This document shows positions 1,186-24,233 of a stretch of DNA of 52,074 bases, piece after piece. Location: assembly GCA_018064665.1 (NCBI GenBank), contig JAGHUV010000011.1, forward strand, positions 1 through 52,074, read 5' to 3'. The position numbers were made by a program, and so were the translations under genes. Each line of letters starts with the position of its first letter. The stretch's first letter is position 1. The notes under the pieces are model-generated. The model saw nothing but the letters and a program-made list of their open reading frames with translations, was not told the DNA's origin and ran no database searches. The DNA is from Candidatus Crickella caballi. Its GTDB lineage: Bacteria; Bacillota; Clostridia; Peptostreptococcales; Anaerovoracaceae.

Positions 1186-1232
1186 TAATGTGTAATATAT
1201 TTCGCAAATTAAGTAAGAAGGAGGAATATAGA

Positions 1233-5514: not shown

Positions 5515-5703
5515 ATGTGTTTATCTAATGTATATAAGAATGACGCATCGGCGGATAATCTGTTATACAGAAACATTGCTGATGTTAGGATCGACGGAAC
5601 GAAAATAATACTTACAGACCTTATGGGTATAAGGAGTGAGATCGAAGGATCAATCGAGAAGGTTGACCTGATGGAAAACTATATTATTGTGAGGGATATA
5701 TGA
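5515..5703 (+). CDS. CooT-like small nickel-binding protein
   Basis: A 62-residue protein of the CooT family. It starts MCLSNVY, has Cys at position 2, then the pattern NIADVRIDGTKI, TDLMGI and IIVRDI at the C-terminus. CooT of Rhodospirillum rubrum is a homodimer that binds nickel through Cys2 and supports maturation of CO dehydrogenase. The start at 5515 follows AAGGGG by about eight bases; an upstream in-frame ATG (5425) would add 30 unconserved residues. Its stop overlaps the next start by four bases (ATGA), so it is translationally coupled to the ferredoxin-type aldo/keto reductase. No CODH gene is in the window. Confidence 0.8.
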   Translation: MCLSNVYKNDASADNLLYRNIADVRIDGTKIILTDLMGIRSEIEGSIEKVDLMENYIIVRDI

Positions 5704-6845
5704 TTTACAGGAAATTTAAAGACAAAGAGCTGTCTCTTCTCGGAATGGGATGTATGAGATTCCCTTGCGTAGACGGCAAAGATGGAGAGCCGGATCAGGA
5801 GAAGGTCAATGAAATGGTTGATTATGCTATGGCAAACGGCATCAACTATTACGATACTGCTTACGGATATCACGAGGGCAAGAGTCAGATCGTGATCGGA
5901 AACGCACTTAAGAAGTATCCGAGAGAAACGTTTTATCTTGCAAACAAGTTCCCGGGATATATGGCTGAGAGCTTTACGAAAATCGACGAGATATTCAATG
6001 AGCAGCTGGAAAAGTGTCAGGTGGATTACTTTGATTTCTACTTATTCCACAATGTATGTGAATCCAACATAGATGCATATCTGGACGACGAGACAGGGCT
6101 CTTCGACTATCTGATGCAGAAGAAGGCGGAGGGCAAGATCAGGCATCTTGGATTCTCGACTCACGGCAGTCTCGATACCATGATGAGATTCCTGCGTAAA
6201 TACGGCAAGGATATGGAGTTCTGCCAGATTCAGCTGAACTATGTGGATATGGAACTGCAGGAAGCGAGATACAAGCTCGAAGCGTTGACGGCGATGGGAA
6301 TGCCAATATGGGTCATGGAGGGTCTGCGCGGCGGAAAACTTGCCCAAAGCTGCCTTGGCGCAGAGAAGCTGCTCTCTGAAAAGAGGAAGAGCTTCACGCC
6401 TGCAAACTGGGCTTTCGCTTTCCTTGAGAGTCTTCCGGATATCGGAATGATACTCTCGGGAATGTCTTCGTTCGAGCAGCTCAAACAGAACATCGAATTC
6501 TTTGGCAGAGAGCAGCAGCTCTCTGAAGAGGAGATGGGCATCCTCCTTACAGCAGCACACCTTGATATTGAGGCCAACAAGGATACCGTGCACTGTACAG
6601 CCTGCAGATATTGCACAAGCAAATGCCCGCTTGGTCTGGATATTCCGTGGCTCCTGAAGCTGTTTAATGAGCATGTGTATACGGGAGATGGTTTTATTGC
6701 ACCTATGGCAATCGGGGCTGTCGAGGAAGACAAGAGGCCTGCTGCATGTCTTGGCTGCGGAGAATGTGCCAGGGTATGTCCTCAGAAAATCGATATACCG
6801 GGAACTATGAAGAAGTTCTCCGAGGTGATTGCGAAATCAGAATAA
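5700..6845 (+). CDS. Aldo/keto reductase with C-terminal [4Fe-4S] ferredoxin domain (copy 1)
   Basis: A 381-residue fusion of an aldo/keto reductase barrel (about 1-285) and a two-cluster ferredoxin tail. The barrel shows YYDTAYGYH (catalytic Asp/Tyr region), LANKF (Lys) and FHNV (His). The tail has C299xxC302xxC305xxxC309 and C350xxC353xxC356xxxC360, each followed by Pro. This architecture is common in anaerobes; substrates are mostly unknown, and the clusters suggest ferredoxin-linked rather than purely NADPH-linked reduction. It overlaps the CooT-like gene by four bases. A paralogue at 28779 has the same architecture and also follows a nickel/CO-related gene. Confidence 0.88.
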   Translation: MIYRKFKDKELSLLGMGCMRFPCVDGKDGEPDQEKVNEMVDYAMANGINYYDTAYGYHEGKSQIVIGNALKKYPRETFYLANKFPGYMAESFTKIDEIFNEQLEKCQVDYFDFYLFHNVCESNIDAYLDDETGLFDYLMQKKAEGKIRHLGFSTHGSLDTMMRFLRKYGKDMEFCQIQLNYVDMELQEARYKLEALTAMGMPIWVMEGLRGGKLAQSCLGAEKLLSEKRKSFTPANWAFAFLESLPDIGMILSGMSSFEQLKQNIEFFGREQQLSEEEMGILLTAAHLDIEANKDTVHCTACRYCTSKCPLGLDIPWLLKLFNEHVYTGDGFIAPMAIGAVEEDKRPAACLGCGECARVCPQKIDIPGTMKKFSEVIAKSE

Positions 6846-6960: not shown

Positions 6961-7254
6961 TCACTCGTTTGACAGCAAAGCCAGTGCCTGCTCCATGAGA
7001 AGATTGCTCTCTTCCAGACGGTCAACAGCATCGTGAACAAGGTCTGCGATTTCGTCTTCAAAACAGTGTGCGAGCTCGTGCAATTCTTCGGCATGATGTC
7101 TGTTGTGCGACAGCATGTAGTTGAGCATTGCAAGGGCTTCCTCGGGCGACGAAGCCACCCCGTGTGAGTGTGTCGTTCCGTCTGCGTGTGTATGTGTATG
7201 AACAGTGCCGTCGGCATGTGCATGTGTGTGCTCATGAGCGTGATTATCTGCCAT
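6961..7254 (-). CDS. Small histidine-rich, probably metal-binding protein
   Basis: A 97-residue acidic protein. The first 31 residues hold ten His in an alternating pattern (HAHEHTHAHADG, then THTHADGTTHSHG). The remainder is helical and again His-rich around HNRHHAEELHELAH, with one Cys. Alternating His tracts of this kind bind Ni, Co or Zn in HypB, CooJ and similar proteins. The start at 7254 has CGGAGG nine bases upstream. It has no membrane segment or signal peptide. With HypA and a CooT-like protein close by, intracellular nickel storage or buffering is my best inference, but zinc or cobalt is equally possible from sequence. I do not recognise a named family. Confidence 0.75.
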   Translation of the reverse strand: MADNHAHEHTHAHADGTVHTHTHADGTTHSHGVASSPEEALAMLNYMLSHNRHHAEELHELAHCFEDEIADLVHDAVDRLEESNLLMEQALALLSNE

Positions 7255-7389
7255 AATATTCCTCCGATTTTCTGCCCTTGATGTAGTGTTTTGCGTGCGG
7301 CCCGCCACTACAAATTGAAGGCTCCTGAAATACGACCTGAAAGTGCCGGAAATGCAGTGCTATCAAGCCTTGTTTTGAAGTATAACGCG

Positions 7390-7419
7390 TTGACAATTTA
7401 ATGTCAATCGAGTTAAAAT
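7390..7419 (+). promoter_or_regulatory. Promoter with overlapping palindrome, dehydratase-like module A
   Basis: A consensus -35 TTGACA (7390-7395) is followed after 18 bases by TAAAAT (7414-7419). The -35 is the left half of an inverted repeat, TTGACA-N6-TGTCAA (7390-7407), positioned where a bound repressor would block RNA polymerase. The regulator is unknown. Confidence 0.6.
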
Positions 7420-7572: not shown

Positions 7573-8778
7573 ATGCGTGATTTAAAACATCTTATCTACT
7601 TTGAGGAGCTTCTGCAGGAGGCTAACAATGACCTCGTGCGCAAGGCAAAAGAAGACGGCAAGAAAGTCCTGGGATACACTTGCTATTTCATGCCTGAAGT
7701 ACTTCTCAACCTGCCGGGATGCATCTCAGTAAGACTGAGAGCGCCAAGGTGCACGTCTCCTGATATGGCTACTTACTACATGTCCGGAAGAACCTGCCAC
7801 TATGGCAGATCCCTCATGGAAAGAGCGCTCGAGGGCGGATACAATTTCCTCGATGCACAGCTCGCAACTGAGACATGCACAGTAACATGCAGATTCCAGG
7901 AGCACCTGGGATATAAGTCAGAGACATTTGACTCGACAATCATCCCTAACAACGATTTCAAAGTTGAATTTACAGACGTTCCGTTCAAGAAGACCGAGAA
8001 CAGCCTGGATCACTATGAGAAGGAACTGCAGGTCCACGTTCTTGACTTCCTTAAGAACGAGTACGGAATCGATACATCCGACAAGGCTCTTAAGCAGGCA
8101 ATCAAGGATTACAACGAGATCTGCGAGATCATTCAGGAAATCGGCGAATACAGAAAGCTCGACAACCCGACTATCACAGGTTACGAGTTCTCAGTAATCA
8201 CACTCGTTTCCATGGCATGCCCATGGTACCTGATCAAGGATAAGCTGAAAGAGACAGCTAAGGAACTCAAGACAAGAAAGCCTGACGACAAGCCAAACTG
8301 GAAGATCAAGGTTGAGCTTGCAGGCGGCGAGAATGACGATCCTGATTTCATCAAGCTTATCGAGAGCTGCGGAGCTCTGGTGGTTGCTGACAGACACTGC
8401 TACGGTGCGCTTGAAGCAAGAGTACCTATCGAAATCAAAGAAGGCGAGACTCCACTTGCTGCAATCACAAGACATTATCTCTACACAAGCCAGTGTGCTA
8501 GATACATGGAGCAGAAGGAGATGAGAAACAGAAAACAGGTCATCGCCGACTATGCGAAGGAATACAAGGCTGACGGAATCATCGTAATCTCCAACAAGTT
8601 CTGTGAATACTGGAGCTATGAGAGAATGATCGATACTATCGTAATCCCAAGAGACTATGGATATCCTGTATGCTCGATCGAGAAGGAGTACATCAACTCT
8701 GCGTCGGGCCAGCTGAGAACAAGATTCCAGGCTTTCGTTGAGAGCGTAGAACTCAAGAAGATTCAGGAGGGCAAGTAA
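7573..8778 (+). CDS. 2-hydroxyacyl-CoA dehydratase/benzoyl-CoA reductase family, smaller subunit (module A)
   Basis: A 401-residue protein of the HgdB/BcrC superfamily, whose members carry a Fe-S cluster held by three Cys and reduce or dehydrate substrates through radical chemistry. The family C-terminal signature is present (GQLRTRFQAFVE, then KKIQ). Cys shared with the module B paralogue at 13550 are those in GYTC (C37), TC(H/E)Y (C75), C102, DRHC, CARY and K(F/Y)C; the first three and the last are the likeliest cluster ligands. Length is close to HgdB (about 380). It is followed by its partner after one base. No CoA-transferase or 2-hydroxyacid dehydrogenase is nearby, so the substrate is unknown. 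Codons are strongly biased, suggesting high expression. Confidence 0.88.
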   Translation: MRDLKHLIYFEELLQEANNDLVRKAKEDGKKVLGYTCYFMPEVLLNLPGCISVRLRAPRCTSPDMATYYMSGRTCHYGRSLMERALEGGYNFLDAQLATETCTVTCRFQEHLGYKSETFDSTIIPNNDFKVEFTDVPFKKTENSLDHYEKELQVHVLDFLKNEYGIDTSDKALKQAIKDYNEICEIIQEIGEYRKLDNPTITGYEFSVITLVSMACPWYLIKDKLKETAKELKTRKPDDKPNWKIKVELAGGENDDPDFIKLIESCGALVVADRHCYGALEARVPIEIKEGETPLAAITRHYLYTSQCARYMEQKEMRNRKQVIADYAKEYKADGIIVISNKFCEYWSYERMIDTIVIPRDYGYPVCSIEKEYINSASGQLRTRFQAFVESVELKKIQEGK

Positions 8779-8779
8779 T

Positions 8780-10414
8780 ATGAAGAAACCGGATTTTGAA
8801 AAAATTAAAAATACCAACTTCAAGAAGCTTGCTCATGACTTCGTTTACGGCAAGCCACATGGAGAAAGAAGACTTGGAGAGCTGTACATTCCGGGAACAG
8901 GACTGTATAAGCATAGAGAGTGGAGAGGTATCAAGGATACCATGTACGCTTTCAATAACATTTGGCTGTACAACTATGGCATGCTCGTTAAGGACCTGGT
9001 AGTTCTGGGCGGAGGTCCTAAGGGACTCGTTCAGTTCCTCAAGGGAACAATGAGATACAGATGGATGGGTCAGACTTATCTGACAGTTATGCACTGGGTA
9101 GACCGTAACCTCGAAGGCATGAGAGGAGAGGCTCTGAGAGGTTCCGCATGGCACTTCAGAGGCATCATCAATGCCTGCCTGGTACAGATCACACAGATGT
9201 TCAACAGAGACATTAGTCTGGGCGGAGACCCTAAGCTCTGGGAGAAGACAATGGGTCACGATGAGACACTCTGGGGTGGAGTATTCTATCCGTTCAGAGA
9301 TCAGATGACAAACATTCCGCTGCAGATGATCCCTTACTTCGTAACATGTCACTGCAACAACCATACAGTATTGAACTACATAGATGCCGCACAGGCATTG
9401 GGACTTCCTGGAGACCCATGTCCAATGTGTCAGGCTGAGGCAGGAATTTTCCTGCAGGATGACGTTCCTGATTTCTTTAAGGCATTTGTTACAACTAATG
9501 AGGCATGTGACGGATCAGTTGCAACATCGGTCATTCAGGACTGGATGATCAACAAGCCACTTTTTGCAATGCCACAGCCAATGCAGTTTGATAACGAGGA
9601 GGTTCTCGAGAACTGCGCTAAGGAAATCGAAGGCGCTTGGAAGTTCACAGAAGAGAAGCTCGGAGTTAAGTTTAACTGGGATGAACTGGTTAAGAACCTT
9701 GAGAGCCAGAATGAACTCCAGAGGTTCGAGTGGGAGAAGTGGGACGTTGCAGCTAATACCAACAGCTATCCTATCAACGGCGTTGCACAGGCACTTTACA
9801 GAATTTTCCAGGGTCAGTACGGAGATCTGCCTATCTGGCACGAGGTCGATGCCAAGGTTAGAAAGATCATGGACAAGTGTGTAGAGGAAAAGATCAACAC
9901 ATTCCCAATGACAAGACACAGAGTTATCGCATGGTCATGTGCTCCTCTGTATTACTCAGCATGGTGCACATGGGCATACAACTGCTGGGGACTCAACACT
10001 ATTATCAACATGGACTCACTCATGTTCGACATGGAGATCAGAACAGATTCATATGAGAACTGCCTGATGGATATGGCAAGATACCATGAATGGGCACCAA
10101 TGAGAAGAATGGCAGTTGGCGGACTTCAGCACATCTTCGAACTTTGGGATAACATGGAGAAGTTCAACTGCGACATGGTTATGATGTATGACCAGCTGAA
10201 GTGCAAAGGAATGCAGGGTGTACACGGACTGTTCGAGGACGAGTTCCGTGCAAGAAACATCAATGCGATCTGGATGCCACACGCACTGCCTGATAAGAGA
10301 GACGTATCAAGAGCAGAGATCAGAGATATCGTTAACGATTACATGTTCACAGTAATGGGCGAGGAGCCACTCGATCCATCACTGCTCGAGTTTGACGATG
10401 CTAACAGCTGGTAG
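8780..10414 (+). CDS. 2-hydroxyacyl-CoA dehydratase-like large subunit (module A)
   Basis: A 544-residue partner subunit, clearly longer than typical HgdA/BcrB proteins (roughly 430-480). About 130 N-terminal residues (GKPHGERRLGELY, then TMRYRWM) precede the recognisable part. Cys shared with the 618-residue paralogue at 14743 lie in D(P/T)C, CDGS, WSC, NCWG and CK(G/N)M; both proteins end in a DPxL..FDD motif. Module A has extra Cys (TCHC, CPMC) not found in module B, so the metal site may differ. The ATG lies one base after the preceding stop, with CAGGAGG in the end of that gene. It probably forms a heterodimer with the 7573 product. Confidence 0.82.
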   Translation: MKKPDFEKIKNTNFKKLAHDFVYGKPHGERRLGELYIPGTGLYKHREWRGIKDTMYAFNNIWLYNYGMLVKDLVVLGGGPKGLVQFLKGTMRYRWMGQTYLTVMHWVDRNLEGMRGEALRGSAWHFRGIINACLVQITQMFNRDISLGGDPKLWEKTMGHDETLWGGVFYPFRDQMTNIPLQMIPYFVTCHCNNHTVLNYIDAAQALGLPGDPCPMCQAEAGIFLQDDVPDFFKAFVTTNEACDGSVATSVIQDWMINKPLFAMPQPMQFDNEEVLENCAKEIEGAWKFTEEKLGVKFNWDELVKNLESQNELQRFEWEKWDVAANTNSYPINGVAQALYRIFQGQYGDLPIWHEVDAKVRKIMDKCVEEKINTFPMTRHRVIAWSCAPLYYSAWCTWAYNCWGLNTIINMDSLMFDMEIRTDSYENCLMDMARYHEWAPMRRMAVGGLQHIFELWDNMEKFNCDMVMMYDQLKCKGMQGVHGLFEDEFRARNINAIWMPHALPDKRDVSRAEIRDIVNDYMFTVMGEEPLDPSLLEFDDANSW

Positions 10415-10428
10415 AAAGGAGGCCGATC

Positions 10429-10632
10429 ATGAAAGCATGCAAAATTCTTAAGAAGACAGTCGGCGCTCTTGCCGCTGTATACGCAGGTCTGTTCGCAGTA
10501 TATTACTTTGACCTTGACGGAAAGCTTCTGTACTACGTTGTTGAACCATTCATGATTAAGAGATTCGACAACATGAAGAGAAGAGATCCGCTGAGCGTAC
10601 CATACGATCAGATCGATAAAGAATATATGTAG
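10429..10632 (+). CDS. Small one-helix membrane protein of the dehydratase-like modules (module A)
   Basis: A 67-residue protein with a short basic N-terminus (MKACKILKK), one predicted membrane helix (about residues 10-28) and a charged C-terminal tail. The segment VYYFDLDGKLL at the helix exit closely matches VYFLNLDQKLL in the 59-residue protein encoded at the end of module B (17467). AAAGGAGG lies nine bases upstream, and the gene is 14 bases after the large subunit, so it is in the same operon. I do not recognise the family. A membrane anchor or assembly partner for the reductase is possible but unproven. Confidence 0.8.
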   Translation: MKACKILKKTVGALAAVYAGLFAVYYFDLDGKLLYYVVEPFMIKRFDNMKRRDPLSVPYDQIDKEYM

Positions 10633-10644
10633 TTTAGGTTAAAC

Positions 10645-10804
10645 GCTGCGGGAGTGCCGTCCCAAAGGGTACGGCTCCCGCCTCGTTCCGGCTTAACGCA
10701 GCGGTGCTAAGCTCGAACCTCGCCCTATACCGGAGCTTGCACCGGGCTCGTTTTCGCAAAGCACCGGCTACCGGAAAGACCCTTTAGGAGGGCACTCCCG
10801 CAGC
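10645..10804. repeat. Fold-back repeat element, copy 1
   Basis: A 160-base element with 26-base outer arms (10645-10670 and 10779-10804) that pair with two mismatches. A middle stem (TTCCGG/CCGGAA) surrounds a core containing AGCGGTGCTAAGCTC (10700-10714) and, further on, TCGCAAAGCACCG. The same core words occur at 22.9-23.2 kb with entirely different outer arms. It fills the gap between module A and htpG; there is no gene in it. It could end or stabilise the upstream mRNA, or be a mobile structured repeat. Confidence 0.8.
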
Positions 10805-10854
10805 ATAACAAACTACAAAATTCTTCAAAAACAGACAAAAGGAAGTTACCACTA

Positions 10855-12747
10855 ATGAAGAAAGAATTTAAGGCCGAATCCCAGCGTCTGCTGGATATGA
10901 TGATCAACTCGATCTATACGCACAGAGAGATCTTCCTCAGAGAGATTATCTCCAACGCGTCGGATGCCATCGACAAGATGTGCTATCTCGCCTTGACCGA
11001 CAAGAACGTCGGATTGAGCCGTAGCGATTTTGAGATCATCATCACTCTCGATAAAGAGAACAGGATACTGACTGTAAGCGACAATGGTATCGGCATGAAT
11101 CAGGAAGACCTCGAGACCAACCTCGGAACGATCGCTTTCTCGGGCAGCAAGAAGTTTGCTGAACAGATTGACGAGAACAAGGCTGAGGAGATCGATATCA
11201 TCGGACAGTTCGGAGTAGGCTTCTACTCGGCATTTATGGTTGCAGACAAGATTGAAGTTGTGACCAGAAAATACGGCGAAGACAAAGCGTACAGATGGAC
11301 TTCTGAGGGTACCGGCGGCTACAGCATTGAAGAGGCCGAGAGAGAGACGCAGGGAACTGACGTAATTATGCACATCAGACCTGACGGAGAAGAAGAGGAT
11401 CAGAAGGACGAGTTCAGCAAGTATCTCAGAGAATATCCGATTTACAGGCTGGTCAAGAAATACTCCGACTACATCCGCTTCCCGATCAAGATGCTGATGC
11501 CGCATCCTGTAGTCAAGGAAGGCTCCGATCCGGAGAATCCTGAATACGAAGAGGTTTTCGAATATGAAGTGTTCAATTCGATGATCCCGATCTGGCAGAG
11601 AAAGAAGGGAGACGTTACTGAAGAGGAGTACGCCGAGTTCTACAAAGAGCAGTTCGGCGATGACATGGAACCGCTTGAGGCGATGACTGTTTCGGTAGAG
11701 GGAATGGTAAGCTACAATGCACTCATGTACATTCCGCAGGCAATTCCTAACAAGTATTACTCCGATGATTTCCAGGGCGGACTTCAGCTGTACAGCTCGG
11801 GCGTACTCATCATGGAAAGCTGCAGAGACCTGCTTCCGGAGTATTTCAACTTTGTTCGCGGAGTTGTTGATTCACCGGACCTGTCGCTCAACATTTCCAG
11901 AGAGATGCTTCAGCATGACAGACAGCTCAAGCTGATAGCTTCCAACCTCGAGAAGAAGATAAGAGGCAAGCTTGAGGATATGCTCAAGAACGACAGAGAG
12001 AAGTACGAAACCTTCTACAAAGCGTTCGGCCGTCAGCTCAAAGTTTGCGCACTTGACGATTACGGCAAGTACAAGGATCAGCTTCAGGATCTGCTGATGT
12101 TCTACAGTTCGACAGAGAAGAAGCTTGTGACTCTGGCAGAGTATGTTGAGAGAATGCAGGATGACCAGAAGAATATCTACTATGCTTCCGGAGACAGCCT
12201 GGACGCTATCGACAAGATGCCACAGACAGAGATCCTCAAGGACAAAGGCATAGAGATTTTGTACTTTGTTGACAAGACTGACGAGTTTATCTCAGACACC
12301 TTCAGAAATTACAAGGAGAAACAGTTCTTGTCTGTTATAGACGGAGATCTGGATATCGGAGACAAGGAGAAGGAAGAGAAGGTTGCAGAGACATTTAAGG
12401 ACACCTTCGAATTTGTCAAAGAGACACTGGGTGACAAGGTTGATGTCGTAAAGCCATCGACCAAGCTCAAATCACATCCTGTATGTCTTTCGAGCGGAGA
12501 GGGAATCACCTTCGAGATGGAGAAATATTTCACCGCAGTAAGCCCTGAAATGAGAATGAAGGCAAAGAGAATTCTTGAGCTTAATGTTGATCACGAAGCA
12601 TTTCTCGCTCTCGAAAAAGCGAGAACAGAGGATGCTGACAGAGCTGCCAGGATGTGCGAGGTTCTCCTGAACCAGGCGCTTCTGATTGCAGGTCTGCCAA
12701 TAGAAGACCCATCGGGTTACACTGATACAATTTGCAGCTTATTTTAA
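10855..12747 (+). CDS. htpG: Molecular chaperone HtpG (Hsp90)
   Basis: A 630-residue bacterial Hsp90, normal length. The N-terminal GHKL ATPase domain shows REIISNASDAIDK (the family's ELISNASDA motif), the ATP-lid glycine motif DNGIGM, and GQFGVGFYSAFM. The middle domain includes NISREMLQ. It is a cytosolic dimeric chaperone that uses ATP to remodel client proteins. The start has AAAAGGAAG upstream. It sits between the two dehydratase-like modules and only nine bases before the CooC-like ATPase gene, so the two may be cotranscribed; a role in folding the complex Fe-S enzymes is possible but not shown. Confidence 0.96.
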   Translation: MKKEFKAESQRLLDMMINSIYTHREIFLREIISNASDAIDKMCYLALTDKNVGLSRSDFEIIITLDKENRILTVSDNGIGMNQEDLETNLGTIAFSGSKKFAEQIDENKAEEIDIIGQFGVGFYSAFMVADKIEVVTRKYGEDKAYRWTSEGTGGYSIEEAERETQGTDVIMHIRPDGEEEDQKDEFSKYLREYPIYRLVKKYSDYIRFPIKMLMPHPVVKEGSDPENPEYEEVFEYEVFNSMIPIWQRKKGDVTEEEYAEFYKEQFGDDMEPLEAMTVSVEGMVSYNALMYIPQAIPNKYYSDDFQGGLQLYSSGVLIMESCRDLLPEYFNFVRGVVDSPDLSLNISREMLQHDRQLKLIASNLEKKIRGKLEDMLKNDREKYETFYKAFGRQLKVCALDDYGKYKDQLQDLLMFYSSTEKKLVTLAEYVERMQDDQKNIYYASGDSLDAIDKMPQTEILKDKGIEILYFVDKTDEFISDTFRNYKEKQFLSVIDGDLDIGDKEKEEKVAETFKDTFEFVKETLGDKVDVVKPSTKLKSHPVCLSSGEGITFEMEKYFTAVSPEMRMKAKRILELNVDHEAFLALEKARTEDADRAARMCEVLLNQALLIAGLPIEDPSGYTDTICSLF

Positions 12748-12756
12748 GGTAAAGAT

Positions 12757-13515
12757 ATGGGAGATACTAAAATATTAACTGTCGCCGGAAAAGGCGGCGT
12801 CGGAAAAACATCAATATCCTCGGCTATGGTAAGGATTCTCGCAGAGACATACCCTGATGCAAGAATTCTTGCAATCGACGCAGACCCAGCAATCGGACTT
12901 ACCACAGCACTCGGTGTAGAGCCGACTGACACTTTGGACGGAATCCGCAAGAAAATCGTAAACAGCGTTGAAGAGGGCAGACCTAAGGAAGCCATCGAAA
13001 TGCTCAACGAAGCGAGATTCAGAATTTTCGATACTATGCTGGAGGAGGCAAAGTTCTCGTTCCTGGCAATCGGTCGTCCGGAGGCTGCCGGCTGCTACTG
13101 CAAGGTAAATGCATATCTCAAGGAGGTCATAAGCCTTCTTGCTGAGGATTTCGACTATGTTATCATTGATGGAGAGGCCGGCATCGAGCAGATCAACCGA
13201 CGCGTTATGGAGAAGGTCACTCACCTCTTCCTTATCACAGATCCAAGCCGCAAGGGCTGCAAGGTAGTAGATACCATCAAGGAGGTGGCTGACGAGCTCG
13301 TAATGTACGACAAGTGCGGAGTGATCGTCAACCGCGTCAAGGAGGAATCTATACCGTATGTTAAGGTTGAATCAGCAGAGATACTTGCATATATTCCTGA
13401 CGACAAGGCTCATGCTGACAACGATATAATGGGCGTAAGCGTATTCGATCTTCCGGAGGATTCACCGGTAATGGTCGGAACTCGCGAAGCTCTCACTAAA
13501 ATGCAACTAATATAG
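12757..13515 (+). CDS. CooC/MinD-type metal-insertion ATPase
   Basis: A 252-residue P-loop ATPase of the SIMIBI class. It has the deviant Walker A GKGGVGKT (residues 11-18), the switch region DADPAIGL, and GCYC with Cys113 and Cys115. That spacing matches the CxC motif by which CooC dimers bind nickel for CO dehydrogenase maturation. It lies nine bases after htpG and 34 bases before module B. No CODH is in the window. It could insert metal into, or help activate, the module B enzyme, or serve a nickel enzyme encoded elsewhere. The CooC-type assignment is firm; the client is not. Confidence 0.82.
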   Translation: MGDTKILTVAGKGGVGKTSISSAMVRILAETYPDARILAIDADPAIGLTTALGVEPTDTLDGIRKKIVNSVEEGRPKEAIEMLNEARFRIFDTMLEEAKFSFLAIGRPEAAGCYCKVNAYLKEVISLLAEDFDYVIIDGEAGIEQINRRVMEKVTHLFLITDPSRKGCKVVDTIKEVADELVMYDKCGVIVNRVKEESIPYVKVESAEILAYIPDDKAHADNDIMGVSVFDLPEDSPVMVGTREALTKMQLI

Positions 13516-13549
13516 ATAGGTATATATAGTTGGAAGGAGGTATTGTAAA

Positions 13550-14743
13550 TTGAAAGACTTGAAGCATTTGATCTACTTCGAGAGCCTCTTGGACAATCCT
13601 GACAACGAGCTGGTAGAACAGGCGAAGAAAGATGGCAAGCATATCATGGGTTATACTTGCTACCACATTCCTGAAGTTCTGCTGAACGTTGACAATTGTG
13701 TTTCAGTCAGACTGCGTGCACCAAGAACAGGTTCGATCGACATCGCAACTTATTACATGTCAAACTACACCTGTGAGTATGCTCGTGCTCTGGTTGAGAG
13801 AGGTATTGAGGGCGGATTCCAGTTCCTGGACGGTCTTGCAGGTGTTGATGCATGTTCCATGATGAACAGATTCTATGAGCACTTCGAAATCCTCAAGATG
13901 AATGATAAGGAGAAATTCTTCGTTACACACCTCGACGTTCCTTATAAGACAGAAGACTTCTCTTATAAGCACCTCGAGAAGCAGCTCCAGAAGAGATTAC
14001 TGGAAGAGATGAACAAGGCATACGGCGTTGACATTTCTGACAAGGCCATCCGTAAGGCTGTTGCAGAGCACAACGAACTTTGTGCAATTATGCAGGAAAT
14101 CAGCGAGATGCGTAAGGCTGATAACCCGGTTATCACAGGTTATGAGTTCCACGTAATGAACATCGTTTCCTATACTTGCCCTAAGTATCTGATACTGCCT
14201 CTGTTCAAGGAAACTCTGGCAGAGCTCAAGAAGAGAAAACCAGATCCAAAGCCTGCTTTCAGAGCAAGAGTTGGTATCGTAGGTTCTGAAATCGACGACC
14301 CTGAATTCACTAAGATGATCGAGGATGCAGGCGCAAGAGTAGTATTCGACAGACACTGCTTCGGATCAATTCCGGGAAGAGAGATTATCGAACTGAACGA
14401 CGAGGAAGACGCACTTCCACAGATCGTAAGACATTACATGGATACATCTGAGTGCGCTCGTTACATCGCAGACAACAAGGTTCAGCAGAGAAGAGACACT
14501 GCAGACAGACTCATGAAGGAGTTCAATGCAGACGGAATCATCTACGAACAGATGAAGTACTGCGACTTCTGGGGATTCGAGAGAGCTCTTGTCAGCCACA
14601 TCATGGCTGAGGAATACGGTTATCCGGTTCTTTCAATCGACAGATTATATAACGCAAAGGGCTCCGGACAGCTCAGAACAAGATTCCAGGCTTTCGTAGA
14701 ATCGCTTGAGATCAAGAAGATTCAGAAAGGAGGCAAGAAGTAA
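13550..14743 (+). CDS. 2-hydroxyacyl-CoA dehydratase/benzoyl-CoA reductase family, smaller subunit (module B)
   Basis: A 397-residue paralogue of the protein at 7573, alike over the whole length: both begin (M)xDLKHLIYFE, share GYTCY, VSVRLRAPR and ATYYMS, and end with GQLRTRFQAFVES..KKIQ. The cluster-ligand candidates C37, C75, C102 and the Cys in MKYCDFW are kept, whereas some Cys of module A (in APRC and TVTC) are replaced. The start is a TTG at 13550, nine bases after AAGGAGG; the module A paralogue aligns from the same residue. Its stop overlaps the large-subunit start by one base. Confidence 0.88.
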   Translation: MKDLKHLIYFESLLDNPDNELVEQAKKDGKHIMGYTCYHIPEVLLNVDNCVSVRLRAPRTGSIDIATYYMSNYTCEYARALVERGIEGGFQFLDGLAGVDACSMMNRFYEHFEILKMNDKEKFFVTHLDVPYKTEDFSYKHLEKQLQKRLLEEMNKAYGVDISDKAIRKAVAEHNELCAIMQEISEMRKADNPVITGYEFHVMNIVSYTCPKYLILPLFKETLAELKKRKPDPKPAFRARVGIVGSEIDDPEFTKMIEDAGARVVFDRHCFGSIPGREIIELNDEEDALPQIVRHYMDTSECARYIADNKVQQRRDTADRLMKEFNADGIIYEQMKYCDFWGFERALVSHIMAEEYGYPVLSIDRLYNAKGSGQLRTRFQAFVESLEIKKIQKGGKK

Positions 14744-16599
14744 TGGTTATCAGTACAGAATTACTCGGAATCAGAAACTCCATTGCCGAGAACATGGAGA
14801 ATAAGGCAAAAAAATCCGGAAAGGTTAAATATCCTAACCCGAAGTTCTTCAGAGCTAAGGACAATATGGATTGGAAAAAGCAGGGAGAGAACCTCTTAGA
14901 GGTTGGAAAGATCTGCGTTGATATTTTCAAAGAATCCGATCAGAAGGCTTTCTGGAAGAAGCAGCTTGACAGAACTATCGACGATCTTAAGAGAGTTAAG
15001 CTGGAAATTCAGCAGGGCATCGAAATGACACCGGAAGAGAGAAAAGACGTTTTCCTCAACGGTGAGAAGACTCTCGGTAAGCTGTATCGCAAGGGCGACA
15101 TGGCTACAGTAAGAAGAGAGTGGAAGGGCGCAGCTGACACTGCATACGACTTCTGGGAGTGGTGCAGAATGTGGGGAATGCTCATCGGAACATTCGGCAA
15201 GGACCTCGTTCCTGCTCTTAACACTACATTCCACTACAGATGGATGATTTCGTACATGTGCTGCGTAGGCTTCATGGACAAGAATACCTTCGGACAGAAG
15301 GGAACAGCACTGAAGATGTCACACCTTATGATTTACGACGTATTCCGCTATGTAGCAGAGAACCTCGTATTCCTTGCTAAGTGTGACGAGAAGAACGGTA
15401 ATTCCAAGGAGCTGAACAAGAAGGTCGTACTCTTCGACGAGATGACAATGGGACAGATCATGGCCGGATTCCCTGACCTGCTCGGTATCCCTTATCAGCT
15501 GATGCCTGTATTCCTGGTATCAGAAATCGACCAGCTCACATGCATCCCATATATCGATGCAGTCGAGAGCTTTGGACTTCCTGCTGATACTTGTCCTGTA
15601 CCATCATCAGAGTGCGGCGCACTGGTCATCGACGCTCTGCCACACATGGGCAGCTGCTTCATTTCCAGCTCAATGCCTTGCGATGGTTCTGTAATGGCAT
15701 CAGAGTATATGTCACGTAGATTCCCTAACCTGCCTGTATACCATCTGACATTCCCTGTTAGATATGAGTATGAGGAAACAACTGCTGATGCTGTTGAAGA
15801 TATCAAGGGCTGCATCAAGTTCGTTGAGGAAATCACAGGTGCAAAGTGGAATTGGGATGCATACTTCACTCAGATGAAGAGATTCAACGAAGAAACTACT
15901 TATGAACTGCAGAAGTGGGAAGTTAACAAGACTGATTATCCTCAGATTCTGGGACCTTGCTACGAGCTGTTCCGTAAGTGGAACTATGAGATGGACGGCG
16001 GAGCTGATCCAAGAGTTATTCCTACATTCAAGAAGACTACTGAACTTATGATGAAGGCTTATGAGCGTAGAGAAGAAGCTTGGAGAGGCAAGATGAAGTA
16101 CAGAGGAATCGTATGGTCTTGCCCTGCTCACTATTATGCAAACTTCAGTAACTGGCTTGCTAACTGCTGGGGCGTAGATATCCTGGTAGAGATGGAGTCA
16201 CTGAACTTCACCAAGATGCTCGAGACAGAGGACAAGGAAGAGGCTCTTATGGACCTCGCAAGACTCTACGAGCGTATGGTTATGAGAAGACACACTAACG
16301 GTGGATACCATAACGTAGTTAACGAGCTGTGGAAGCAGGTTGAAGACTGGAGAGCAGATATCATCATCATGTATCAGAACGTAGCTTGCAAGAACATGTC
16401 AACTCTGCAGGGTATCCTTGACGACCAGGCAAGAGAGAAGAATTACCACATGATCTGGATCGAGCACGATCTGATGGATCCAAGAACAGTATCCAGAAAG
16501 AATATGAGACAGAAAGTCAACGAGTACATGACTACAGTTATGAAGGCTACACCTGTTGACCCGACTCTCGTAGACTTTGATGACGAGATTTGTATGTAG
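14743..16599 (+). CDS. 2-hydroxyacyl-CoA dehydratase-like large subunit (module B)
   Basis: A 618-residue paralogue of the module A large subunit, with about 70 extra N-terminal residues. That makes it much longer than any dehydratase subunit I know (roughly 430-480). Shared landmarks are FHYRWM, LGIPYQLMP, CDGSV, WSCPAHYY, NCWG, NVACKNM and the end DPTLVDFDD. The N-terminal region is rich in Lys, Glu and aromatic residues and has no membrane helix or signal. It is translated from an ATG overlapping the previous stop (TAATG). With the 13550 product it probably forms the catalytic heterodimer that the adjacent ATPase activates. Confidence 0.82.
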   Translation: MVISTELLGIRNSIAENMENKAKKSGKVKYPNPKFFRAKDNMDWKKQGENLLEVGKICVDIFKESDQKAFWKKQLDRTIDDLKRVKLEIQQGIEMTPEERKDVFLNGEKTLGKLYRKGDMATVRREWKGAADTAYDFWEWCRMWGMLIGTFGKDLVPALNTTFHYRWMISYMCCVGFMDKNTFGQKGTALKMSHLMIYDVFRYVAENLVFLAKCDEKNGNSKELNKKVVLFDEMTMGQIMAGFPDLLGIPYQLMPVFLVSEIDQLTCIPYIDAVESFGLPADTCPVPSSECGALVIDALPHMGSCFISSSMPCDGSVMASEYMSRRFPNLPVYHLTFPVRYEYEETTADAVEDIKGCIKFVEEITGAKWNWDAYFTQMKRFNEETTYELQKWEVNKTDYPQILGPCYELFRKWNYEMDGGADPRVIPTFKKTTELMMKAYERREEAWRGKMKYRGIVWSCPAHYYANFSNWLANCWGVDILVEMESLNFTKMLETEDKEEALMDLARLYERMVMRRHTNGGYHNVVNELWKQVEDWRADIIIMYQNVACKNMSTLQGILDDQAREKNYHMIWIEHDLMDPRTVSRKNMRQKVNEYMTTVMKATPVDPTLVDFDDEICM

Positions 16600-16650
16600 T
16601 TATAACTGCCGAAAGGCTGAAGAATATTTATTAAAAAAGGAGATACAGTT

Positions 16651-17442
16651 ATGAAATATTATGGTGGCTGCGACGTAGGTTCAACTTACACTAAGGCAGT
16701 TATTCTGGACGAGAATGGCAAGATGGTAGCTGATACTACTATCAGAAGTAAGATCAATTCCGGCGAATCCGCAAAGATCGCTATGAAGGAAGTTCTGGAC
16801 AAGGTTGGCCTGAAGAGCTCCGAGGAACTGGAGTACCTCATCGGTACAGGTTACGGAAGAAACAAGGTTCCTTTCGCTGACGAAAACATTTCTGAGATTT
16901 CATGCCACGCTATGGGCGTACACGTTACTGACCCTGCAGTAAAGGCTATCATCGATATCGGCGGACAGGACGTTAAGGGAATCGCAGTTGATACAGACGG
17001 AACTGTAAAGAACTTTGCAATGAACGATAAGTGCGCAGCAGGAACAGGAAGATTCTACGAAGCTATGGCCAGATCTTTCGAGATGAGCCTCTCCGATTTT
17101 TCCAACCTGTCACTCACAGCTAAGAACGTAATTCCTATTACAGCTCAGTGCACAGTATTCGCTGAGTCCGAGGTTATCACTCTCGTTGGAGAGAACAAGC
17201 CTATGGACGAGATCGCTGCAGGAATTCAGATGGCAGTAGCTAAGAGATGTTTCGTAATGGCTAAGAAGGCCGGCGCAACTGACAGCATTACACTGACCGG
17301 TGGATGCGCTAAGAACGCAGGTCTGAAGCAGGCTATCGAGCACGTTCTGAAGCTCAAGGTTATCGACCTTAAGATCGACCCACAGCTGATGGGAGCACTC
17401 GGTGCAGCTGAGTTCGCACGCCAGAAGGGACAGGCTAAATAA
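16651..17442 (+). CDS. ATP-dependent activator of 2-hydroxyacyl-CoA dehydratase/benzoyl-CoA reductase (HgdC/BcrAD family)
   Basis: A 263-residue ASKHA-fold ATPase. It has the phosphate-binding motif CDVGSTYTK, IDIGGQDVK, and the two conserved Cys C128 (NDKCAAGTGRF) and C167 (ITAQC), at nearly the positions (127, 166) that bridge a [4Fe-4S] cluster across the HgdC homodimer. Such activators transfer one electron to the dehydratase or reductase while hydrolysing ATP. It has AAAAAAGGAG upstream and follows the module B large subunit by 51 bases. It is the only activator in the window, so it may also serve module A. An outside electron donor (ferredoxin, or the 1233 flavoprotein) is needed. Confidence 0.92.
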   Translation: MKYYGGCDVGSTYTKAVILDENGKMVADTTIRSKINSGESAKIAMKEVLDKVGLKSSEELEYLIGTGYGRNKVPFADENISEISCHAMGVHVTDPAVKAIIDIGGQDVKGIAVDTDGTVKNFAMNDKCAAGTGRFYEAMARSFEMSLSDFSNLSLTAKNVIPITAQCTVFAESEVITLVGENKPMDEIAAGIQMAVAKRCFVMAKKAGATDSITLTGGCAKNAGLKQAIEHVLKLKVIDLKIDPQLMGALGAAEFARQKGQAK

Positions 17443-17466
17443 AAAAGCTGAAAGGAGTAAGCTATT

Positions 17467-17646
17467 ATGAAGAAGAAAGGTTGCCCACTCTGCAAGGCTG
17501 CAAAGGCTGTTACGATCGGCGGAGCAGTAGCAGTAGGAACGCTTTTTACGGTTTACTTCCTCAATCTCGATCAGAAGCTCCTGAGCTGGGCTTATGTAGA
17601 GGTTAACGAGATTTTCAACCGTAAATCACAGGACATCAAGTTCTAA
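17467..17646 (+). CDS. Small one-helix membrane protein of the dehydratase-like modules (module B)
   Basis: A 59-residue protein with an N-terminal CPLC pair (C6, C9), one membrane helix (about residues 15-32) and a polar tail. VYFLNLDQKLL matches VYYFDLDGKLL of the 67-residue module A protein, and both tails continue with an aromatic/Val-Glu segment. AAAGGAG lies just upstream and the start is 24 bases after the activator stop, so it is the last gene of module B. No known family is recognised. Its repeated placement at the end of both modules argues for a linked function, perhaps anchoring or assembly. Confidence 0.8.
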   Translation: MKKKGCPLCKAAKAVTIGGAVAVGTLFTVYFLNLDQKLLSWAYVEVNEIFNRKSQDIKF

Positions 17647-17655
17647 ATTGTATAA

Positions 17656-17687
17656 GCGGAGCTGCGAAATGCAGCTCCGTTTTTTTA
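17656..17687 (+). terminator. Terminator of module B
   Basis: A strong hairpin (CGGAGCTGC, loop GAAAT, GCAGCTCCG) is followed by a run of T. It directly follows the small membrane protein gene. Confidence 0.85.
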
Positions 17688-17769: not shown

Positions 17770-17830
17770 TAGTTCAGCTATAAAAGTTATCGCTTATGTA
17801 AAATTTCAATTGATATTTTGGAGGTTTACA

Positions 17831-18913
17831 ATGAACAAGAAGTTAATGGTATTGATGTTATCATTGGCTATGGTTTTCTGCTTTGCATTTACTGGTTGTG
17901 GCCAGAAAGACGCAGCAGAGGGTGATGGCACTTATGAAATCGCAATGGTAACAGACGTTGGACAGCTGATGGACGGATCCTTCAACCAGTACACTTTCGA
18001 AGGCGTTAAGCAGTACGCAGAAGAGAACGGCCTGACTTATCAGTATTATCAGCCAGCAAACGGTGCTGAGGCTACTGACGACGATAGAATCGATGCAATG
18101 AATGCAGCTATCGAAGGCGGAGCTAAGGTTATCGTTACTCCTGGATTCCTTCAGGAGACAGCTCTGAACGCAGTAGTTCCTGAAAATCCTGATGTACAGT
18201 TCGTATTCATCGATGGATGGGATATGGGATACGACAACCTGGTTGGCGTAAGCTATCAGGAAGAGCAGGCTGGATACCTGGCAGGATATGCAACAGTTAT
18301 GGAAGGCTTCACTAAGCTCGGATTCTCCGGCGGTGGCGGCGGCTCCAACCCTGCATGCTGCAGATACGGATATGGATTTGCACAGGGCGTAAATGATGCT
18401 GCTGGTGAAAAGGGAATTAAGGTAGACCTGAACTACTCATGGCTCCACGGCTCAACATTCACTGGAAATGACGACCTGAAGACAATGCTCTCAGGATGGT
18501 TCAATGATGGAATGGAAGCATGCTTCATGTGCGGTGGCACAATGTTTGACTCCGGTGTTGCTGCAGCTTCAGAAGCTAATGGCAAGATTATCGGTGTTGA
18601 CGTAGACCAGAGCACAGGCTATGAAGATATCGTAATCACTTCAGCTACAAAGGGACTTACTGCTTCTGTAAAGACAGCTCTGACTAAGTTCTATGCTGAC
18701 GGAACTTACGGTGGATCTCTCGTTCTTGGCGCTGCTGACGATGCAGTTGGAATCCCAACTGATACTTGGTCACTCCAGAACTGGACTGTTGATGATTACA
18801 ACGCTCTGTTTGAAGAGGTTAAGGCTGGAAAGGTTAAGATTGACAACGCTTCTGACGTTTCTGACCCAACAGGCAAGCTGGCTAACGTAAACGTTAACTT
18901 CATTGGCGAATAA
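17831..18913 (+). CDS. BMP-family substrate-binding lipoprotein (nucleoside ABC transporter)
   Basis: A 360-residue surface lipoprotein of the BMP/Med family. The N-terminal signal MNKKLMVLM.. ends in the lipobox FTGC, with lipidated Cys23. The mature protein has the family motif DGSFNQ and a typical length. BMP proteins paired with two permeases and a double ATPase import nucleosides in Firmicutes. The cdd-deoC-udp-deoB operon 2 kb downstream supports nucleosides as substrate here. I took the ATG at 17831, eight bases after GGAGG. A terminator-like hairpin follows, so this gene is probably expressed more than the rest of the operon. Confidence 0.9.
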   Translation: MNKKLMVLMLSLAMVFCFAFTGCGQKDAAEGDGTYEIAMVTDVGQLMDGSFNQYTFEGVKQYAEENGLTYQYYQPANGAEATDDDRIDAMNAAIEGGAKVIVTPGFLQETALNAVVPENPDVQFVFIDGWDMGYDNLVGVSYQEEQAGYLAGYATVMEGFTKLGFSGGGGGSNPACCRYGYGFAQGVNDAAGEKGIKVDLNYSWLHGSTFTGNDDLKTMLSGWFNDGMEACFMCGGTMFDSGVAAASEANGKIIGVDVDQSTGYEDIVITSATKGLTASVKTALTKFYADGTYGGSLVLGAADDAVGIPTDTWSLQNWTVDDYNALFEEVKAGKVKIDNASDVSDPTGKLANVNVNFIGE

Positions 18914-18923
18914 TAACTAAAAA

Positions 18924-18976
18924 AGGTTAAATGTATTAACCTGAGAAAGGGGGAAATGCAAATTTCCCCCTTTTTT
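18924..18976 (+). terminator. Intra-operon attenuator-type terminator
   Basis: After a small hairpin (GGTTAA/TTAACC, 18925-18941) comes a strong one, AAAGGGGGAAAT paired with the reverse strand AATTTCCCCCTTT, running into a T-run at 18971-18976. It lies between the binding-protein and ATPase genes and probably lets only part of the transcripts continue, giving an excess of binding protein. Confidence 0.75.
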
Positions 18977-18993
18977 CAAAAAAGGATAAGACT

Positions 18994-20529
18994 ATGGCAG
19001 AAGAATATGTAATTGAAATGAATCACATCCGGAAAGAATTCCCGGGTATTGTGGCAAATGACGATATCACGCTTCAGCTTAAGAAAGGCGAGATCCATGC
19101 TTTGCTGGGAGAGAACGGAGCCGGCAAGTCGACCCTTATGTCTGTACTTTTTGGTCTCTACCAGCCGGAAGACGGAGAAATCAAGAAGGACGGAAAGGTT
19201 GTTGAGATCAACGACCCTAACGACGCTACAGCATTGGGTATCGGAATGGTACACCAGCACTTTAAGCTGGTAGATGTATTTACGGTTCTCGATAATATTA
19301 TTCTCGGTGCAGAGACAACAGGTGCACTCGGATGGCTCAAGAAGAAAGAGTCCAGAGAGAAGGTTATCGAGCTTTCCAAGAAGTACGGTCTTAATGTAGA
19401 CGTTGATGCCAAGGTAGAGGACATCACCGTAGGAATGCAGCAGCGTGTAGAGATTCTTAAGATGCTCTACAGAGATAATGATATCCTGATTTTTGACGAG
19501 CCTACAGCGGTTCTTACACCTCAGGAAATCGACGAACTTATGGAAATTATGAGAGGGTTCGCCAAGGAAGGCAAATCCATCTTGTTCATATCACATAAAT
19601 TAAACGAGATTATGGCAGTATCCGACAGAGTAACCGTTCTGCGTAAAGGAAAATACATAGGCACGGTTAACACCAAGGATACCAACAAGCAGGAGCTTTC
19701 CAACATGATGGTAGGAAGACCTGTTCAGCTCGAAATAACTAAGGACGAAGCCAAGGTAAGCGACGTGGTTCTCGAGGTTAGAGACCTGTCGGTTCCTTCC
19801 AAAATTCACAAGGGTGACGCCGTAAAGAACGTAAGCTTTGACGTAAGAAAGGGTGAAATCGTCTGCATCGCAGGTATCGACGGAAACGGTCAGTCTGAGC
19901 TTATCTATGGAGTAACCGGAATCAGAAAACCAGATAACGGAACTGTAACAGTAAACGGAGAGGACATTACCAAGTCAACAGTAAGACATAAGATGGAGGT
20001 AATGAGCCATATTCCGGAGGACAGACACAAACACGGACTGGTACTTCCGTTTACTCTGGAACAGAACATGGTACTCCAGAGATACAGAGAGAAGGATTTC
20101 CAGAACCATGGCTTCATCAAATTTGATGCTGTAAGAGAATATGCAGACAAGCTGATCAAGGATTACGATGTTCGTTCCGGTCAGGGCGCAATCACAACAA
20201 GTGCGTCAATGTCCGGAGGAAATCAGCAGAAGGCAATTATTGCCCGTGAGCTTGACAGAGATAAGGATCTTATCGTTGCCGTACAGCCTACAAGAGGTCT
20301 GGACGTAGGAGCTATCGAGCACATTCACAGGCAGCTTATCAGCGAAAGAGACAAGGGCAAAGCAGTCCTTCTCGTATCGCTCGAACTCGAAGAGGTTATG
20401 GGTCTTTCCGACAGAATCCTTGTAATGTACGAGGGCGAAATCGTCGGAGAACTGTTCCCTAAGGAAACAAGCGCAGAAGAGCTGGGACTCTACATGTCCG
20501 GTGCGAAGCGTCAGGAAAGGAGGGCATAG
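18994..20529 (+). CDS. Nucleoside ABC transporter ATP-binding protein (double domain)
   Basis: A 511-residue protein with two fused ABC domains, as in RbsA-type and NupA-type transporters. Domain 1 has Walker A GENGAGKST (about 37-45), a degenerate signature VGMQQR and Walker B ILIFDEPT. Domain 2 has a degenerate Walker A (GIDGNGQSE), a good signature MSGGNQQK, and VAVQPTRGLD in place of a normal Walker B. One active and one degenerate site is usual in this family. It drives uptake through the two permeases downstream; the next start lies two bases after its stop. Confidence 0.93.
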   Translation: MAEEYVIEMNHIRKEFPGIVANDDITLQLKKGEIHALLGENGAGKSTLMSVLFGLYQPEDGEIKKDGKVVEINDPNDATALGIGMVHQHFKLVDVFTVLDNIILGAETTGALGWLKKKESREKVIELSKKYGLNVDVDAKVEDITVGMQQRVEILKMLYRDNDILIFDEPTAVLTPQEIDELMEIMRGFAKEGKSILFISHKLNEIMAVSDRVTVLRKGKYIGTVNTKDTNKQELSNMMVGRPVQLEITKDEAKVSDVVLEVRDLSVPSKIHKGDAVKNVSFDVRKGEIVCIAGIDGNGQSELIYGVTGIRKPDNGTVTVNGEDITKSTVRHKMEVMSHIPEDRHKHGLVLPFTLEQNMVLQRYREKDFQNHGFIKFDAVREYADKLIKDYDVRSGQGAITTSASMSGGNQQKAIIARELDRDKDLIVAVQPTRGLDVGAIEHIHRQLISERDKGKAVLLVSLELEEVMGLSDRILVMYEGEIVGELFPKETSAEELGLYMSGAKRQERRA

Positions 20530-20531
20530 CA

Positions 20532-22834: not shown

Positions 22835-22855
22835 AAGCTATAAGATGTCAGGAAT

Positions 22856-22885
22856 GGCAGGGGGAAACCTCTGCCGTTCTTTTTT
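22856..22885 (+). terminator. Terminator of the BMP transporter operon
   Basis: GGCAG-GG pairs with CC-CTGCC around a GGAAA loop, and a T-run follows at 22880-22885, about 20 bases after the permease 2 stop. Confidence 0.75.
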
Positions 22886-22892
22886 ATGGTTA

Positions 22893-23020
22893 CAGCGGAG
22901 AGGGTGCTCTCCATGGCGCGCTCGCGCTGACAGTTGAGGCGTAGCGGTGCTAAGCTCTGACCGAGTCAATCGCAAAGCACCGACGCCTCAAAGTCACCAT
23001 GGAGAGCACCCTCTCCGCTG
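22893..23020. repeat. Fold-back repeat element, copy 2
   Basis: Perfect 24-base outer arms (22893-22916 and 22997-23020; left arm begins CAGCGGAGAGGG) enclose a middle stem TTGAGGCGT/ACGCCTCAA. Inside is the core AGCGGTGC..GCACCG, with a loop TAAGCTCTGACCGAGTCAATCGCAAA that can itself form TGAC/GTCA. The core words AGCGGTGCTAAGCTC and TCGCAAAGCACCG are shared with the element at 10645, but the outer arms are unrelated. With copy 3 it fills the gap 22886-23244; I see no gene there. Confidence 0.85.
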
Positions 23021-23070
23021 CAAAATACAAAACTCGGCAGAGCTCTCCTACAAGCTTGAGCGGACAGATA

Positions 23071-23181
23071 AGGCGTAGCGGTGCTAAGCTCTGACCGAGT
23101 CAATCGCAAAGCGCCGATGCCTCAATGTCACCATGGAGAGCACCCTCTCCGCTGCAAAATACAAAACTCGGCAGAGCTCTA
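23071..23181. repeat. Fold-back repeat element, partial copy 3 (tandem)
   Basis: The segment 22937-23047 is repeated at 23071-23181 with a 134-base period, including the trailing GCTGCAAAATACAAAACTCG. The left outer arm is missing here, replaced by unrelated sequence. Two differences from copy 2 (GCACCG to GCGCCG, ACGCC to ATGCC) turn Watson-Crick pairs into G-U pairs, so the inner stem is kept. Confidence 0.8.
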
Positions 23182-23244
23182 TGATATATCGGAGAGATTT
23201 GTGCTAAAATAAAAAGCAGTTATCAGTTGGAAGCGGAGAATACT

Positions 23245-24213: not shown

Positions 24214-24233
24214 AACAAAAAAGGAGCGGAGCT

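Follow-up and report, generated by a model that had tools for sequence, protein, structure and literature searches.

We found that a 52,074-nucleotide stretch from Candidatus Crickella caballi (assembly GCA_018064665.1, contig JAGHUV010000011.1, positions 1 to 52,074; hereafter the window) carries at 7573-17646 two paralogous modules of the HGD-D family, to which 2-hydroxyacyl-CoA dehydratases also belong. Our favoured reading, held at a probability of roughly 0.6, is that the modules are ATP-driven iron-sulfur reductases resembling BzdNO, served by one shared activator and matured with nickel; the nickel part is what we infer from the helper genes. The most unusual feature of the locus, overlooked by a first-pass annotation made from the DNA alone, is a group of nickel-maturation genes and a protein with a domain of acetyl-CoA synthase (ACS). 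The nickel kit of CO dehydrogenase (CODH) and an ACS domain would then sit with an ATP-driven double-cubane reductase, an arrangement common in animal-gut bacteria. The genome comprises 1.449 Mb in 42 contigs and is 94% complete.

Architecture and family of the two modules

Module 1 consists of a small subunit, a large subunit and a small hydrophobic protein (S1, Lg1 and tm1), module 2 of the corresponding S2, Lg2 and tm2, and the operon has a single activator gene. The modules are paralogous well beyond chance: S1 and S2 were identical at 204 of 391 positions (alignment score 1075 versus at most 61 in 100 shuffles), Lg1 and Lg2 at 175 of 503 (768 versus at most 60) and tm1 and tm2 at 21 of 46 (60 versus at most 40). 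Coordinates and alignments bore out the first-pass annotation on the two modules with a subunit of ~400 residues each, on the over-long second subunits (544 and 618 residues) and on one activator ATPase for both (TIGR00241, 213 bits). The tiny proteins, which it had called membrane proteins, were both present with one hydrophobic stretch each (top 19-residue Kyte-Doolittle means of 1.6 and 1.86 for tm1 and tm2); a membrane location is plausible, and borderline for tm1. The two modules are separated by htpG and a gene for a CooC-type ATPase, neither of which the first-pass annotation had named for this region.

All six cysteines of the [8Fe-9S] double cubane, as in BzdN and the double-cubane cluster proteins (DCCP), were kept in S1, S2 and S3, the last being the small subunit of a third pair on contig C3, while HadC of C. 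caballi and two others had four of the six. Because of this full set, the small subunits are predicted to be reductase-type (BzdN/DCCP) rather than dehydratase-type. The large subunits had been described as abnormal. At the sequence level their match to HGD-D was indeed confined to the C-terminal part, and in neither Lg1 nor Lg2 did the region N-terminal to it give a Pfam match; the predicted model of Lg2, however, showed a complete BzdO/HadB fold from residue 184, which makes the large subunits, as modelled, N-terminally extended and not abnormal throughout. A viral fold library gave no match to Lg2 at E ≤ 0.001. Three of the four invariant cysteines of Lg fell at [4Fe-4S] ligand positions, as matched via HadB and MbdO. 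The residues examined for an acid-base pair like Glu65/His131 of BzdO, those around Cys313, read CDGS, with Ser316 invariant. The idea that the fourth cysteine, Cys475, is left over from the distal cubane was rejected, since profile comparison placed it about nine residues too early.

A tree of small subunits (41 rows) placed S1, S2 and S3 in their own 10-row clade (100/100, stem 1.6), with the S-like protein of another locus, L121, as its sister (100/99) and HadC, BzdN and DCCP outside; some joins were long-branched, with a program warning for BzdN with HadC. The small subunits thus did not fall within a characterised clade. When 245 genomes of the class were scanned with an S profile, the clade scored 651-715 bits, L121 236 and the other matches listed at most 108; genome G007, whose contig is cut, had no S match. 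None of the NCBIfam equivalog cut-offs was reached by the module subunits, the small subunits scoring 72.1 and 79.6 bits for HadC (cut-off 700), 78 and 91.3 for bzdN (453.8), 48.6 and 52.4 for BcrC (421) and 127.5 and 146.5 for DCCP (350).

It is therefore hard to credit that the modules encode ordinary dehydratases that act on 2-hydroxyacyl-CoA in amino-acid fermentation and that their neighbours are unrelated. Such dehydratases belong to the same Pfam family and use the same kind of activator, and amino-acid fermenters can have several paralogues; but the six cysteines of S, against four in HadC, already contradict this explanation, and further points against it are the separate clade of S, the presence of a Had-type cluster on another contig and the conserved gene order that includes CooC and the ACS-domain protein. 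Of the eight HGD-D matches in the C. caballi genome, four lie in the window; the others are the third long/short pair (C3) and a normal pair (contig C27). The C27 pair adjoins an activator, the other one observed in the genome, and genes reading from their sequences as CoA-transferase, 2-hydroxyacid dehydrogenase, acyl-CoA dehydrogenase and EtfBA. Because of this Had-type cluster, ordinary 2-hydroxyacyl-CoA chemistry seems to be covered there. Genes for a CoA-transferase, a hydroxyacid dehydrogenase or Etf were absent from the neighbours scanned around the modules, in agreement with the first-pass annotation.

Its proposal of a new reductase type, distinct from amino-acid fermentation enzymes, is supported in part, by the six-cysteine set, the separate clade and the equivalog scores. 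To exclude the modules as acyl-CoA enzymes would go too far, because their nearest sister pair, L121 in genome G184 (440 and 382 residues, six cysteines in the S-like protein, with a CooC relative), sits among acyl-CoA-type genes, reading as a CoA-transferase, two activators, an acyl-CoA ligase, a thiolase and a FadB-like protein. From these genes, a CoA thioester is the probable substrate of the sister clade.

The third pair (401 and ~520 residues; L009:4939-11927 on C3) adjoins HypB (TIGR00073, 237 bits) and a 928-residue Fe-S/FAD oxidoreductase, and no activator was found near it among the listed open reading frames (ORFs) of at least 150 residues. HypB was rejected as a part of the system in view of the oxidoreductase that it adjoins. 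The arrangement is like the IsrA operon described in PMC10134865, a likeness of size, annotation and neighbours and not of direct sequence comparison. The window holds a related Fe-S/FAD oxidoreductase of 910 residues (1188-3920; 446 of 864 positions identical to the C3 protein). Its resemblance to IsrA, a putative isoprene reductase, is limited to size, annotation and a HypB neighbour. One relative of the main operon, L058, carries a further S/Lg pair of 398 and 540 residues (13876-16691, minus strand), so the family may have more than three paralogues. In genome G096, a weak Lg match (41 bits) lay in a 425-residue frame reading as DCCP-like.

Conserved neighbourhood, nickel-type helpers and layout of the locus

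A contig scan yielded at least 462 stretches encoding an Lg relative, of which the best 80 loci were kept. Judged by contig names, these represent 79 assemblies, many of which are labelled rumen, intestine or faeces; the loci are the closest relatives and not independent samples, and the ratios below count only loci with enough sequence. S preceded Lg2 in 76 of 77 loci, CooC lay directly 5' of S in all 73, mostly within 100 bases, and the activator (62/62) and tm (47/47) were always present. The ACS-domain protein followed in 46 of 47 loci; the sole exception, L011, has an Lg2 99% identical to that of the window, where the ACS-domain gene is detached too. Among loci longer than 17 kb, CooT or CooJ-like protein occurred in 25 of 33, Lg1 in 26 and HtpG in 21. 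The more distant genomes G184 and G202 had a single-module core of CooC, S, Lg, activator and ACS domain, and G007 a fragment of it. In the 245 class genomes, the ACS-domain protein (at least 267 bits) was found in exactly the five with a strong Lg (C. caballi or G000, G007, G184, G202 and G223); two further genomes gave 32 and 35 bits, in long ORFs.

The CooC-type ATPase is of MinD type, with CooC1 nearest among solved structures, and its CxC motif was present in 72 of 72 relatives. Cys2 of CooT was kept in all 19 relatives of 55-80 residues. The CooJ-like protein, with 16 histidines in 97 residues, is labelled by composition and not by homology to Rhodospirillum rubrum CooJ. The ACS-domain protein contains the ACS middle domain, an invariant Cx2Cx5C motif and His235; no A-cluster domain was found in its 246 residues. 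As judged from gene order, CooC, CooT and the His-rich CooJ-like protein travel with the modules and the ACS-domain protein belongs to the system.

CooC could also act without nickel, by assembling the [8Fe-9S] double cubane or priming the open [4Fe-4S] site of a nickel-free reductase, an explanation that we regard as unlikely. PMC6006190 proposes that CooC folds the active site at the cost of ATP, and describes R. rubrum CooC as not nickel-binding. Consistent with a role in double-cubane assembly, the sister pair L121, with its six-cysteine S-like protein, has a CooC relative and no CooT or ACS-domain match in its 20-kb stretch. However, six-cysteine proteins exist without CooC: all 23 DCCP-type rows (22 of 26 other HGD-D loci) had six cysteines, and CooC was found within ~1.5 kb in 0 of the 26. 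This explanation also leaves CooT and the His-rich protein unaccounted for, and the CxC of CooC was invariant.

Other genes occurred near the operon in some relatives. A 571-residue protein with a corrinoid domain, MtgC-like in the one copy scanned (L064:4180-5895), was found in four loci (also L038, L041 and L066) and has a UroD-type methyltransferase part as read from its sequence. A BaiCD/bilirubin-reductase-type Fe-S flavoprotein, below both cut-offs (L122:17110-19179, L035:13623-15683, L087:12332-14395), was rejected as a core part and treated as accessory. Of the 40 loci that extend over 6 kb beyond Lg2, 12 had it, a count that takes a match anywhere in the locus and includes 26-32% identity.

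Features of the locus are listed in Table 1. The promoter-like boxes 5' of the first module and the hairpin behind the second would fit one transcription unit; the scans gave 11 promoters and 8 terminators, below the shuffle means of 15.6 and 9.4. The perfect palindrome TTGACA-N6-TGTCAA (7390-7407) overlaps the divergent promoter boxes; when up to one mismatch was allowed, one or more matches occurred in 15 of 100 shuffles, and among 172 loci scanned no exact copy was found outside those of C. caballi. A nickel/cobalt riboswitch was considered and rejected, the window, L035, L052 and L071 giving no Rfam match except a tRNA. Two aldo-keto reductase-ferredoxin paralogues (5700-6845 and 28779-29942; 180 of 369 positions identical) stand directly behind the genes of the system that are detached here, those for CooT and the ACS-domain protein, respectively. 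Downstream of the operon (17810-27579) are genes for the uptake and salvage of nucleosides (BMP lipoprotein, two permeases, phosphorylase and deoC), together with a gene for an amino-thiazoline carboxylate hydrolase family protein (24234-24731).

Table 1. Features of the modules and their surroundings in the window.
Feature	Position	Strand	Evidence and remarks
CooT-like protein, 62 aa, Cys2 kept	5515..5703	+	PF10133 56.3 bits vs cut-off 27 (placed 5515-5691); start taken as ATG of MCLSNVY
His-rich CooJ-like protein, 97 aa, 16 His	6961..7254	-	Divergent from module 1; lies within ORF 6961-7308, with start codon and ribosome-binding site as read in the sequence
Divergent promoter-like boxes and palindrome TTGACA-N6-TGTCAA	7379..7419		Between CooJ-like gene and module 1; consensus matches only
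Small subunit S1, 401 aa, predicted double-cubane subunit	7573..8778	+	PF06050 E 4.9e-81; six Cys
Large subunit Lg1, 544 aa	8780..10414	+	PF06050 E 7.7e-27 at 199-497; family alignment
Small hydrophobic protein tm1, 67 aa	10429..10632	+	ORF; hydropathy; relatives
HtpG (Hsp90), 630 aa	10855..12747	+	NF003555 671 bits vs cut-off 371
CooC-type ATPase, 252 aa, invariant C113-x-C115	12757..13515	+	Best solved structure CooC1 3kje, E 1.3e-17
Small subunit S2, 397 aa, TTG start, predicted double-cubane subunit	13550..14743	+	Cys 37, 75, 102, 270, 302, 338
Large subunit Lg2, 618 aa	14743..16599	+	Predicted helical extension 1-183; BzdO/HadB fold 184-606; Cys 284, 313, 549 and Cys475
Activator ATPase, 263 aa	16651..17442	+	TIGR00241 213 bits vs cut-off 125.4
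Small hydrophobic protein tm2, 59 aa	17467..17646	+	ORF; hydropathy; relatives
Terminator-like hairpin 3' of tm2	17654..17682	+	13 pairs, 7 G-C, T tail; consensus match only
ACS-middle-domain (CdhC-like) protein, 246 aa	28024..28764	+	C216-x2-C219-x5-C225; detached in window, within operon in relatives

Search for nickel clients and Wood-Ljungdahl genes

Fifty-three operon-bearing genomes (5 from the class sample and 48 of the 80 loci) were tested for the usual clients of such helpers. CODH exceeded its cut-off in three of them (G184, G282 and G292), with four more weak matches, and because of this CODH does not account for the nickel kit in 50 of the 53. The ACS A-cluster domain (PF19436) was found in the same three genomes. 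The corrinoid iron-sulfur protein (CFeSP) was strong in these three as well, barely over its cut-off in two more, in ORFs of more than 800 residues, and below it in nine. Formyltetrahydrofolate synthetase (FTHFS) exceeded its cut-off in 41 genomes. The [NiFe]-hydrogenase family was matched in 17, each best match covering only model positions 1-69 or 1-70 of 508. CooT occurred in 41 of the 53 genomes versus 28 of 245 in the class sample; CooC and CooT alone should not be read as a sign of CODH.

Does the system then reduce CO2 or handle CO, with its ACS domain replacing CODH/ACS in a Wood-Ljungdahl-like route? CooC, CooT, the CooJ-like protein and an ACS domain are hallmarks of CODH/ACS, and in 50 of the 53 genomes CODH did not exceed its cut-off; FTHFS was common, and the corrinoid methyltransferase-like fusion stands near the operon in four loci. 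In addition, PMC7000372 reports the conversion of 13C-bicarbonate to acetate and CODH activity in enrichment-culture extracts for a Lachnospiraceae bacterium without CODH/ACS genes. Nevertheless, CFeSP was strong solely in the three CODH genomes, C. caballi had no FTHFS, no A-cluster domain is present in the ACS-domain protein, this domain being confined to the same three genomes, and the candidate of the authors of PMC7000372 was a hydroxylamine-reductase (HCP) homologue, for which the paper describes no consistent activity on expression. A canonical Wood-Ljungdahl role is argued against because CFeSP is missing and, in C. caballi, FTHFS too; a CO/CO2 reaction outside that pathway is compatible with the data. 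An alternative Wood-Ljungdahl pathway was set aside on these grounds and is kept as a rival of low probability.

Proposed function and comparison with known systems

Several observations weigh against nickel-matured reductases. Nickel itself is suggested by helper genes only. The search of the C. caballi genome for CODH, the ACS A-cluster domain, CFeSP, FTHFS and [NiFe]-hydrogenase found none of them, and it did not extend to urease, lactate racemase or further nickel enzymes. CooT was absent from 12 of the 53 operon-bearing genomes, and CooT/CooJ-like proteins from 8 of the 33 long loci; the CooT counts share ancestry, as the 80 loci are not independent, and the CooJ-like label is one of composition. 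The absences in 48 genomes are weaker because completeness was given for only 5 of the 53. The cysteine motif of the ACS-domain protein lies in a low-confidence part of its predicted model, Cys475 of Lg is outside known cluster-ligand positions, and HypB near the third module probably serves the neighbouring oxidoreductase. The report on R. rubrum CooC mentioned above also points away from nickel, and according to the same paper 85 of 111 CooT homologues were in proteomes with CODH, so that CooT without CODH was known earlier (PMC6006190).

If the modules are nickel-matured BzdNO-like reductases, the biochemistry of BzdNO and the dehydratases suggests that the HgdC-type activator would inject ferredoxin-level electrons at the cost of ATP. 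These would pass to the double cubane of S, which would store them, and the open [4Fe-4S] site of Lg would meet the substrate and receive electrons from S. By analogy with CODH biology, the CooC-, CooT- and CooJ-like proteins would load nickel into a component of the complex; the first candidate is the ACS-domain protein, with its Cx2Cx5C motif and His235, and the second is Lg. HtpG may assist folding, and the small hydrophobic proteins may tether the complex to the membrane. The leading guess for the substrate is a CoA-bound acyl group, because CoA is handled by the relatives in fold, by the sister cluster and by ACS.

A bolder proposal, which we consider improbable, is a new class of nickel enzyme in which a single complex unites the ACS-domain protein with the ATP-energised double-cubane reductase and contains a new Ni-Fe-S site, whose CO2/CO-level or acyl-carbon chemistry replaces CODH/ACS and underlies the CODH activity of the CODH-less Lachnospiraceae bacterium. 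The operon is a candidate for comparison with that unexplained activity. Known nickel enzymes are few, and none is known to be fed by an HgdC-type activator; among the open-licence papers listed, no title or abstract connected CooC, CooJ or nickel maturation with proteins of the HGD-D or double-cubane kind. Should the complex hold nickel, it would enlarge the set of nickel enzymes and add a route to chemistry at very low potential in the gut.

Among known systems, BZD-type class I benzoyl-CoA reductase (BzdNO with BzdPQ) shares the six-cysteine double-cubane subunit and a large subunit with the BzdO/HadB fold and three [4Fe-4S] cysteines. Class I enzymes have two different activator subunits (BzdPQ, BcrAD), whereas the operon has one activator gene and adds the N-terminal extension of Lg, the nickel-type helpers and the ACS-domain protein. 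DCCP resembles the modules in the six cysteines of S and the activator ATPase, but it is a homodimer of one gene product (PMC11971306) and each module has two unlike subunits. Similarly, 2-hydroxyisocaproyl-CoA dehydratase (HadBC) shares the fold and three cysteines of the large subunit, and differs in that HadC has four of the six cysteines present in S. CODH/ACS with CooCTJ maturation has in common CooC, CooT, the ACS middle domain and, as judged by composition, the His-rich CooJ-like protein, whereas CODH, the A-cluster domain and a strong CFeSP were found in just 3 of the 53 operon-bearing genomes.

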